Assembly: GCF_002727065.1 (NCBI RefSeq)
Contig: NZ_PDVP01000002.1
Coordinates: 1 to 64,000, forward strand
Length of the DNA stretch: 64,000 nucleotides
Direction of reading: 5' to 3'
DNA from: Zhengella mangrovi
GTDB taxonomy: Bacteria > Pseudomonadota > Alphaproteobacteria > Rhizobiales > Rhizobiaceae
A program made the translations under genes and the position numbers. Below are positions 25,344 to 53,438 of this stretch, piece after piece. The notes under the pieces were generated by a model. That model made no database searches, was not told the DNA's origin, and saw only the letters and a program-made list of their open reading frames with translations. Every line of letters begins with the position of its first letter. The first letter of the stretch is position 1.

Positions 25344-26450
25344 TCACATGCTGCAACCAAAAAGGTCGTTCCAGAAAACGAACCCCATAAACACGAGTAC
25401 GACCAGGAATCCTGCCCGGTAGACATATTCCAGGGCAGCTTCGGAAACCGGCCGTCCCCGCACTGCCTCGATGGCGTAGAACATCAGGTGGCCGCCATCA
25501 AGGGGCGGTATGGGCAAGAGATTGAGAATCCCTATTCCAACCGAAAGCATGGCGATCAGCTGAACCACCCAGATAAAGCCCTTGGCCGCTGCTTTTCCGG
25601 CCATGTCGGCGATTTTCACCGGTCCGCCGAGCTGGCAGCTGTCTTCACGGCCCGTGACAAGAAGTTTCATGAATTGACCGGTCGACGTCACCAGGAAGGC
25701 GGTTTCCTGGATGGCGGCACCCACCGATTCGAGCGGTCCGTAGTCGAGCCGGCGCATGGCGGCAGGCGAGGTGTCGGCCTTGATGCCGATCAGGTAGCGC
25801 ATCACCTTGTTGCCAAGCGGGTCGGTCTCTTCCCTGCGGCTCGGTGTCACGGTCAGCTCGACATCCTTGCCGTCGCGGTTGACGATGAAATGGATCGGTT
25901 CGCCGCCGCTGAGCGGCACGTATCGCTGCACGTCACCGAACTCGGTGATCGGGATGCCGTCCATGGAGACAAAGCGGTCGCCGGGCTGGAAACCGGCCGC
26001 GACCGCCGGGCCGTCTGGCATGAGTTCGCCGACCAGCGGGTCCAGCTCGTAGCGGCCATTGGTCGCGAACATCACCGAAAAGACGAGGATGGTCAGCAGG
26101 AAATTGAAAACCGGGCCGGCCAGCACGGTGAGGAAGCGCTTCCAGACCGGCTGGACGTGGAAGGCGCGCGCGCGTTCCTCCTCGCTGAGGCCGGCGAGTT
26201 CGCCCTCGTCGGGCGCGCTGCTCGTCGCATTCATGTCACCGAGGAATTTCACGTAGCCGCCGAGCGGAATGAGCGACAGCTTCCAGCGGGTTCCATGCCG
26301 GTCGTTGAAGCCCCATATCTCCGGACCGAAGCCGATGGAAAACGAGGAGGCGGCAATGCCGCACCAGCGCCCGACGAGATAGTGGCCCATCTCGTGCACG
26401 AAGACGACAATGATGAGCACGAAGAGAAACGGAACGATCACGTCCAGCAA
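25344..26450 (-). CDS. rseP: Site-2 zinc metalloprotease RseP
   Basis: Intramembrane protease that cleaves signal peptides left in the membrane and anti-sigma factors. It has 368 residues: an HEMGH zinc motif (residues 19-23) in the first membrane helix, one PDZ domain (about 125-215), and the third zinc ligand in LPIPPLDGGH near residue 320. The start is a TTG at 26450 preceded by GGGGAG; an in-frame GTG three codons in is possible. The single PDZ domain, compared with two in E. coli, is usual in Alphaproteobacteria. It is located between cdsA and bamA, the conserved order. Confidence 0.94.
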   Translation of the reverse strand: MLDVIVPFLFVLIIVVFVHEMGHYLVGRWCGIAASSFSIGFGPEIWGFNDRHGTRWKLSLIPLGGYVKFLGDMNATSSAPDEGELAGLSEEERARAFHVQPVWKRFLTVLAGPVFNFLLTILVFSVMFATNGRYELDPLVGELMPDGPAVAAGFQPGDRFVSMDGIPITEFGDVQRYVPLSGGEPIHFIVNRDGKDVELTVTPSRREETDPLGNKVMRYLIGIKADTSPAAMRRLDYGPLESVGAAIQETAFLVTSTGQFMKLLVTGREDSCQLGGPVKIADMAGKAAAKGFIWVVQLIAMLSVGIGILNLLPIPPLDGGHLMFYAIEAVRGRPVSEAALEYVYRAGFLVVLVFMGFVFWNDLFGCSM

Positions 26451-50263: not shown

Positions 50264-51106
50264 TCAGGCCTCGAACTGGAACAGGGCGCCCTGTCCGGGC
50301 GCCGGAGGAACGGCGAGCGTGCCGTCAACGTCGTTGAAATCGATGCAGGAGGCGGTCAATCGCCTGCGCAGCGCGTCCGGATCGGCACAGGCGAAACGGA
50401 TGGCCAGGCAGGCCAGATCCGTGACGCCGGGATCACGGACGATGGCGATGGCCGCATTCGGGAGCACCACCTCGACATGGTCTTCAAAGGCATCGACCTC
50501 GGCACCGGTGAATGCTTCCAGGAATGCCCGGTGGGTGTGGGGGTTGGCGGCAGCGAGCGTGATGCCACGGATCCCCGTGACGCCATTTTCATGGGTTTCC
50601 AGGGCCGTCCGGTCGACGACGGGAACGTTGACGCGCTGGCAGGCGAAGAAGAAGGCGGCATTGCCGGCTTGCGGGGCAGCAAAGGCGAGCCGGAAGGAGG
50701 CTTCCCCCTCCGCGCCGTCCGGCGTGCGGAAGCCGCGCGAGAAATCCAGCCGCGTGCCGCCGGGGAAGCCTTCGGCACGAAATGCCGCGTCATCGGCATC
50801 GGCGTCCTGGCTGCCGAGCACGAGTGCGGCGAAACCGTTGTCGCCGCGGATGGCTCGAAAATGGGCATCTCCGGCGGTGAAGGCATTGCCCTCGCGTGCG
50901 GTTTCCGCCGCGCGTTGCGGATAGCCAACCGCCAGCGGCTCCAGGAAGGTGCCGTCGGCGAAATAGACGCAGGTGTTGACGGTGCCGAAGGGATGAATGC
51001 CGTCCGGCGCGCAGGTGAAACCCAGCAGGGCAAGCCGGTCCCGGGCCACCGCGAGCGAAGGCACAGGCAGGACGAGGTGATCGAGCGGGCGGGATGGCTG
51101 TTTCAT
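50264..51106 (-). CDS. VOC-superfamily (glyoxalase-like) protein
   Basis: Protein of 280 residues with two repeats of the vicinal-oxygen-chelate fold. The N-terminal half is of the Glyoxalase-like type, with [23 protein letters not shown] at its start. A His and a Glu in each half could bind a metal. The reaction is unknown. It is 6 bp upstream of kdsA on the same strand. I chose the ATG at 51106 (MKQPSRP); a start six codons earlier is possible. Confidence 0.85.
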   Translation of the reverse strand: MKQPSRPLDHLVLPVPSLAVARDRLALLGFTCAPDGIHPFGTVNTCVYFADGTFLEPLAVGYPQRAAETAREGNAFTAGDAHFRAIRGDNGFAALVLGSQDADADDAAFRAEGFPGGTRLDFSRGFRTPDGAEGEASFRLAFAAPQAGNAAFFFACQRVNVPVVDRTALETHENGVTGIRGITLAAANPHTHRAFLEAFTGAEVDAFEDHVEVVLPNAAIAIVRDPGVTDLACLAIRFACADPDALRRRLTASCIDFNDVDGTLAVPPAPGQGALFQFEA

Positions 51107-51163
51107 GCAGCGGGTTTGCCTCAAAAAGCGAGGCCGTTCAAGCTGCCCGCGCTACCGGTCGTA

Positions 51164-51307
51164 TCAGAGCAATCCCATGACCAGCGCTTCGAACAGGTTG
51201 CAGGGGACCGGGAACCCGCCGACGGGCTGCTGGCAACCGGATCCGGGAAAGAAAAGAATGACGCCGAGGACGATCACGACAGCCAGGCCGACGAGCAGTT
51301 TTTTCAT
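51164..51307 (-). CDS. 47-residue membrane micro-protein, C-x10-C/NLFE family (copy 1)
   Basis: The residues are MKKLLVGLAVVIVLGVILFF followed by PGSGCQQPVGGFPVPCNLFE and a hydrophobic end. It has one membrane segment (4-20), a short loop with Cys25 and Cys36, then NLFE and a short hydrophobic tail. It matches its neighbour at 51341-51493 in C-x2-x-VGG-x3-PCNLFE, with identical Cys spacing, so both are paralogues. GAAGGA lies about 11 bases upstream of the ATG. I do not recognise the family. The loop, probably periplasmic, could form a disulfide. Confidence 0.65.
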   Translation of the reverse strand: MKKLLVGLAVVIVLGVILFFPGSGCQQPVGGFPVPCNLFEALVMGLL

Positions 51308-51340
51308 TCGGCGTGCATTCCTTCCATGGTGAGCGGTCCG

Positions 51341-51493
51341 TCAGAAAATCAGGACGAGCAAAATCTCGAACAGGTTGCAGGGTATGGCCCATCCGCCAAC
51401 CGTCGGACCACAATCATCAATGATCGGGTAGAACAGGATGAGGCTCAGCAGCGCCAGTCCGGCAAGCACGGCCAGTACTCGCATTTTACTCAT
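51341..51493 (-). CDS. 50-residue membrane micro-protein, C-x10-C/NLFE family (copy 2)
   Basis: Starts MSKMRVLAVLAGLALLSLIL, giving one membrane segment (6-22), then a loop with Cys28 and Cys39 in CGPTVGGWAIPCNLFE and a hydrophobic tail ILLVLIF. It is paralogous to the gene 33 bp downstream. A 17-base stretch in the PCNLFE codons is identical between the two genes, which shows either recent duplication or strong constraint. There is no good Shine-Dalgarno for the ATG at 51493; an in-frame ATG at 51484 is an alternative. Function unknown. Confidence 0.62.
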   Translation of the reverse strand: MSKMRVLAVLAGLALLSLILFYPIIDDCGPTVGGWAIPCNLFEILLVLIF

Positions 51494-51547
51494 TTAGACA
51501 TCGCTTCGACTTATACGTGTATTCGATTTCGACCTCTAGAATCAAAC

Positions 51548-51575
51548 GGGGCGGGAAGCAATCGCTTCCCGCCCC
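51548..51575 (-). terminator. Terminator of ilvD
   Basis: GGGGCGGGAAGC/GCTTCCCGCCCC forms a perfect 12-bp stem with a 4-base loop, 28 bases past the ilvD stop. On the minus strand it is followed by GTTTGATTCT, a modest U-run. It should end the ilvD transcript ahead of the micro-protein genes. Confidence 0.8.
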
Positions 51576-51602
51576 GCCCGTTCAGGATTTTTCGCCGGCG
51601 TC

Positions 51603-53438
51603 TCAGTCGACGACGCGTACCGCGCCCTTCGCGGCAGAGGTCGTCAGCGCGGCATAGGCCTTCAGCGCGGTCGAGATCTTGCGCTTGCGCTTTTCCACCG
51701 GGTGCCAGCCGGCCTCGGCCTGCATCTCGCGGCGATGTGCCAGTTCGGCATCGTCGACAGCCAGGTGAATGGTCCGGTTGGGGATGTCGATCTCGATCAT
51801 GTCGCCTTCGCGGACCAGACCGATGGTGCCACCCTCGGCGGCTTCCGGTGAAACGTGGCCGATGGACAGGCCCGAGGTGCCACCGGAGAAGCGGCCATCG
51901 GTGATCAGCGCGCAGGCCTTGCCGAGGCCCTTCGACTTCAGGTAGCTCGTCGGATAGAGCATTTCCTGCATGCCGGGGCCGCCGCGCGGCCCTTCGTAGC
52001 GGATCACCACCACGTCGCCGGCCTTGATCTCGTTTGAGAGGATGGCCTTCACGGAGGCGTCCTGGCTCTCGAAGATGCGCGCCGGACCGGAGAATTTCAG
52101 GATCGACTCGTCCACGCCGGCTGTCTTCACGATGCAGCCGTCCTCGGCGAGGTTGCCGAACAGCACGGCAAGCCCGCCATCCTGGCTGTAGGCATTCTCC
52201 CTGGAGCGGATGACGCCCTTCTCGCGGTCGGTGTCGAGATCGGGGTAACGGCGCGACTGGGAGAAGGCGACCTCGGTACGCACGCCACCGGGCGCGGCAC
52301 AGAAGAATTCGCGCACGTTGTTGGCCTGCGTGCGCATGACGTCCCAGCGCTCCAGCGCCTCGCCCATGGAGGCCGAATGGACCGTCGGCAGGCTGGTGTT
52401 GATCAGGCCCGCGCGATCCAGTTCGCCCAGGATGGCCATGATGCCGCCGGCGCGGTGCACGTCCTCCATGTGCACATGGCTGACCGCAGGCGCGACCTTG
52501 CAGAGCACCGGCACCTGGCGTGACAGCCGGTCGATGTCGGACATGGTGAAGTCGACTTCGCCTTCATAGGCCGCTGCCAGCAAGTGCAGAACCGTATTGG
52601 TGGACCCGCCCATGGCGATGTCCAGCGACATGGCGTTGGCGAACGCGTCGTAATTGGCGATGTTGCGCGGCAGGACGCTATCGTCGTCCTGCTCGTAGTA
52701 GCGGCGCGCCAGGTCGACGATCAGGTGACCGGCCTCGATGAACAGGCGCTTGCGGTCGCCATGGGTGGCGAGCGTCGAGCCGTTGCCCGGCAACGCGAGA
52801 CCCAGCGCCTCGGTCAGGCAGTTCATGGAATTGGCCGTGAACATGCCGGAGCAGGAGCCGCAGGTCGGGCAGGCCGAGCGCTCGATGAGTTCGACCTGCG
52901 CATCGGTGACCTTTTCGTCGGCGGCGGCGACCATGGCATCGATCAGGTCGAGCGCCTGTTCCTTGCCGTCTTCCCAGACCACCTTGCCCGCTTCCATCGG
53001 ACCGCCGGAGACGAAGACCACCGGGATGTTCAGGCGCAGGGCCGCCATCAGCATGCCGGGCGTGATCTTGTCGCAGTTGGAAATGCAGACCATGGCGTCG
53101 GCGCAATGGGCGTTGACCATGTATTCCACGCTGTCGGCGATGACCTCGCGGCTCGGCAGCGAGTAGAGCATGCCGTCGTGGCCCATGGCGATGCCATCGT
53201 CCACGGCGATGGTGTTGAATTCCTTGGCAATGCCGCCGGCAGCCTCGATCTCCCGCGCGACGAGCTGGCCCAGGTCCTTCAGGTGCACGTGACCCGGGAC
53301 GAACTGGGTGAAGGAGTTGACCACGGCAATGATCGGCTTGCCGAAATCGGAATCCTTCACGCCGGTGGCGCGCCAGAGTCCGCGGGCACCGGCCATGTTG
53401 CGGCCGTGGGTGGTCGTGCGGGAACGATAGGCAGGCAT
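51603..53438 (-). CDS. ilvD: Dihydroxy-acid dehydratase
   Basis: Iron-sulfur enzyme of valine, leucine and isoleucine synthesis that dehydrates dihydroxy acids to 2-oxo acids. It has 611 residues. The cluster-binding cysteines are in CDKITPG and in [18 protein letters not shown], the classical signatures, along with the C-terminal [13 protein letters not shown]. Single-gene transcription unit between the flavin monooxygenase and a strong terminator. The start [14 protein letters not shown] is the family N-terminus. Confidence 0.96.

Follow-up and report, generated by a model that had tools for sequence, protein, structure and literature searches.

Two small open reading frames, ORF50 and ORF47, lie in tandem on the minus strand of the analysed window, a 64,000-nucleotide stretch of Zhengella mangrovi DNA. 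As judged by comparing them with each other, their similarity is beyond chance and the two are paralogs. They probably represent a new orphan family within a well-known kind of protein, the small membrane proteins. The best explanation, which we favour only tentatively, is that the tandem genes are genuine and lineage-restricted, and that they encode small inner-membrane proteins which would act as disulfide-locked regulators.

Locus and homology of the two ORFs

The pair is located between ilvD (51603-53438) and a VOC-like gene (ATG at 51106), which is closely followed by kdsA and then by eno; these four names were assigned from reading the translations. The preliminary description had reported two minus-strand frames of 47 and 50 residues separated by 33 bp, and their coordinates were confirmed. 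The features of the locus are as follows:

51341..51493, minus strand: ORF50, 50 aa, MSKMRVLAVLAGLALLSLILFYPIIDDCGPTVGGWAIPCNLFEILLVLIF
51164..51307, minus strand: ORF47, 47 aa, MKKLLVGLAVVIVLGVILFFPGSGCQQPVGGFPVPCNLFEALVMGLL
51366..51382, minus strand: 17-base identical block in ORF50 (PCNLFE)
51189..51205, minus strand: 17-base identical block in ORF47 (PCNLFE)
51107..51602, minus strand: ilvD-VOC interval holding the pair, 496 nt
51319..51325, minus strand: candidate ribosome binding site of ORF47, GGAAGGA, 11 nt 5' of the ATG, read from the sequence
51547..51576, minus strand: 13-bp perfect inverted repeat directly past ilvD, possible ilvD terminator

Both ORFs carry the elements that had been attributed to them, namely an N-terminal hydrophobic segment predicted to span the membrane, a C-x10-C cysteine loop (C28/C39 in ORF50, C25/C36 in ORF47), VGG and PCNLFE, and the last three align without gaps. 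The block of 17 identical bases, CCCTGCAACCTGTTCGA, which encodes PCNLFE, was also found as described. The sequences outside the motif had been regarded as diverged. Conservation is, however, broader than the motif: 20 of the 47 aligned columns are identical, among them ILF(F/Y)P, with which the membrane helix ends. At the DNA level, the repeat between the two ORFs covers 35 nt at 77%. BLASTP of ORF50 against ORF47 gave E=2e-7, and the Smith-Waterman score was 89, compared with 29.1 +/- 6.6 (maximum 62) for 5,000 segment-wise shuffles in which the composition of each segment was kept. Since the BLASTP match is significant and the alignment scored above all shuffles, the similarity is not due to chance, and the proposed paralogy is upheld.

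The GC content of the pair is 57%, versus 66% for the window, and its GC3 is lower than that of the neighbouring genes. The inverted repeat past ilvD was not among the calls of a simple terminator scan; if it does act as the ilvD terminator, the pair would require its own promoter. No sigma-70-like promoter was found for the pair by a consensus scan, which provides weak evidence. Directly upstream of ORF50, three copies of TCGAA occur at 51505-51535 (minus strand) beside a TATAAG, and this arrangement might represent an operator or promoter. On the plus strand, a 475-codon open frame (50477-51904) covers the pair in antisense, together with the VOC-like gene and the end of ilvD, and it resembles a shadow frame of the GC-rich genes on the minus strand.

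Coding constraint and orphan status

Codon-position identity between the aligned ORFs was 0.57 (first), 0.68 (second) and 0.38 (third). The third position of the sense frame is thus the most variable, which argues against coding on the opposite strand. The proportion of synonymous differences (pS 0.68) is near saturation, while pN is 0.37, and alignment gaps preserve the reading frame. In 600 neutral simulations with an equal number of differences, constraint over the full length never reached that of the pair, a test that depends on two sequences only, on an alignment optimised at the protein level and on the hydrophobic composition. The gap-free core alone gave weaker support (P 0.011 for identity, 0.041 for the ratio). 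By synonymous codons, the proposed frame scored best of the six in both ORFs; codon usage was poor compared with host genes, and that of ORF50 fell below background. Because silent sites are near saturation while the core has been kept, translation and selection of the pair are supported, and ORF50 and ORF47 are probably old, translated paralogs under selection. The codon constraint expected in the preliminary description is therefore supported within the pair; the comparison across relatives lacked orthologs.

The same data bear on the view that these are not genes, but a DNA repeat that happens to fall in two open frames. It would fit the lack of relatives, the lack of a promoter match and the weak codon usage. 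Against this stand the similarity over the whole length, the conservative replacements, the codon-position structure and the frame-keeping gaps, and we regard it as quite unlikely. An RNA element was rejected as an explanation, as no Rfam family scored over threshold and the folding energy was ordinary.

Relatives were searched with a two-sequence profile in overlapping samples of the family (298 genomes), order (377), class (385) and phylum (349). No convincing match was obtained outside the host genome in any of these samples, and the exact pattern GG-x3-PCNLFE retrieved only both host copies among 397 genomes of the order. Two scans of an 84,980-species collection yielded no relative, nor did two viral-contig scans and searches of plasmids and phages. 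A two-sequence profile of about 50 residues can overlook distant relatives, and these negative results apply to the collections searched at this sensitivity. All but a few lower-ranked marginal matches inside long frames were read out, and these were due to chance. The best-looking late match, a C-x10-C with GGF..PC (E=0.003), was an out-of-frame reading within an ileS-like gene, and the exact motif matches (21 in genomes and 4 in viruses) all fell in unrelated frames. A literature search for the motif string returned nothing, and neither a protein-family nor a PADLOC match above threshold was found for the pair. The orphan status of the pair holds within the collections searched. The check proposed in the preliminary description, a search of other genomes for relatives bearing the motif, thus yielded none, and the statement that the family is not recognised agrees with the lack of any Pfam match over the cut-off and of any matching sequence for either ORF in a PDB sequence search.

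The pair is also missing from the corresponding site in related genomes. In the other genome of the genus (G001), the ilvD-VOC gap is 108 nt, compared with 496 nt in the window, and in another genome of the family with the same gene order (G025) it is about 10 nt. These empty sites point to one of two histories, an insertion of the pair in this genome or its loss from the others. Near-saturation of pS indicates that the duplication is not recent, so that acquisition of an already duplicated pair would be the simplest account. Alternatively, ORF50 and ORF47 could encode small membrane proteins that are translated but derive from a foreign source and have no stable role in the host, i.e. a neutral or selfish ORFan pair such as the cargo of a lost mobile element that stayed behind between ilvD and the VOC-like gene. 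The occurrence of the pair only here, its low GC and GC3 and its poor codon adaptation are consistent with this origin. However, both frames are intact, the motif was kept despite near-saturated synonymous sites, and no viral, plasmid or phage relative was recovered; such a role-less pair is possible, though doubtful.

Predicted topology and comparison with known small membrane proteins

A membrane helix was predicted at residues 3-21 of ORF50 and 2-19 of ORF47, followed by a short C-terminal hydrophobic helix at 41-49 and 38-46, respectively. AlphaFold models built from both sequences had a mean pLDDT of 76 (ORF47) and 79 (ORF50). In both, the N-terminal helix is confident, the loop with an isolated bridge is less so, and a short helix follows PCN. 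A fold search with the ORF47 model found no solved structure resembling it. The positive N-terminus points to an N-in orientation, which would place the cysteine loop in the periplasm; this suggests a loop able to form a disulfide. The disulfide hairpin and the small regulator of a membrane complex considered in the preliminary description would both suit this anatomy. The first cysteine is preceded by GSG in ORF47 and by IDD in ORF50, and neither fits the lipoprotein lipobox L-[AS]-[GA]-C.

Two classes of small peptides were weighed as alternatives. Type I toxins are typically small, hydrophobic and tandemly duplicated, with one membrane helix and about 50 aa. The size, hydrophobicity and tandem duplication of the pair would suit toxins of this class, silenced by an antisense RNA. 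Nevertheless, a consensus scan, again weak evidence, detected no promoter-like site on the antisense strand, no Rfam match passed the threshold, the RNA folding energy was unexceptional (z -0.72) and no family or PADLOC match was obtained, which makes a toxin-antitoxin system unlikely. The second class comprises secreted membrane-acting peptides similar to two-peptide bacteriocins, cleaved after VGG. Two adjacent small genes with GG ahead of the conserved part recall such systems, but GG is preceded by a membrane helix rather than by a typical double-glycine leader, cleavage after VGG would remove the first cysteine, and the ORF lists contain no recognisable exporter, peptidase or immunity gene alongside. 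We consider this very improbable, and the membrane-acting peptide put forward in the preliminary description found no specific support.

A closer parallel is MgrB, the PhoQ kinase inhibitor of Enterobacterales (PF13998). MgrB of E. coli has 47 aa, a length class common to the pair; as in the pair (where the helix is predicted), a single membrane helix at the N-terminus precedes C-x10-C, and the end is hydrophobic. Its C28 and C39 have the same residue numbers in ORF50, its N-terminal KK is shared with ORF47, and in all three proteins Asn and Phe occur within five residues past the second Cys. Both cysteines of MgrB are essential, and its functional residues include W20, D31, F34, G37 and W47 (PMC8404706); in the alignment, these five residues are absent from the pair. 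The MgrB profile did not match the pair in Pfam up to E=10 or in NCBIfam, and it had no match in the host genome at E<=5. No PhoQ or PhoP gene was recognised near the pair. Homology to MgrB by sequence was not significant, as 738/5000 and 4047/5000 shuffles scored equally high. MgrB would therefore serve as a model of a working mode and not as a family assignment.

The only Pfam match was that of BofA (PF07441), the SpoIVFB inhibitor, to ORF47 (E=0.0058, nearly full length). BofA and the pair have in common a VP-x-N that leads into a hydrophobic helix and is itself preceded by a membrane helix, although the profile matches ORF47 only. BofA requires the three residues N48, N61 and T64 (PMC9042235). 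The pair is about half as long, has no equivalent of N48 and carries Glu in place of T64 in both ORFs, so that only the equivalent of N61 is present. Homology to BofA was rejected, as the match scored 17.2 bits versus the Pfam cut-off of 26.1 and shuffles reached an equal score. An rseP-like site-2 protease gene, with HExGH near its start as read from the ORF, is present in the window at 25344-26450 (minus strand). This gene, the Pfam match and the VP-x-N of both ORFs might suggest that the pair inhibits an intramembrane metalloprotease in the manner of BofA. Yet the match is below the cut-off for ORF47 and missing for ORF50, 113 of 2,000 shuffles scored equally high against a BofA sequence, other relatives gave chance matches of equal score, and two of the three required residues are lacking; we judge such an inhibitor extremely improbable.

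Possible function and significance

For the reading favoured here, that of small inner-membrane regulators, the following mode of action may be proposed. Each protein would be oriented N-in, C-out, and its C-x10-C loop would face the periplasm. The cysteines would form a disulfide holding the VGG..P turn, NLFE and the short hydrophobic helix against the membrane. With low confidence, and by analogy with MgrB on PhoQ, each might bind a larger envelope protein within the membrane and tune it. Candidate partners would be a sensor kinase, a transporter or a protease, and the two copies could serve different partners or form a heteromer. No recognisable partner gene is located near the pair. Regulation would be the most plausible single function, but this we infer weakly. 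The more specific proposal of an independently evolved MgrB counterpart, duplicated, disulfide-locked and responsive to periplasmic redox, that would inhibit an envelope sensor kinase, is improbable.

The annotation of small membrane proteins is badly incomplete, and two paralogs offer evidence of coding from within the pair, which a lone ORFan cannot provide. With neither relatives nor a known partner, the pair would otherwise be one of many such orphans. If translated, ORF50 and ORF47 would represent a new family of micro-proteins, in which ideas on the origin and persistence of orphan membrane genes could be put to the test.
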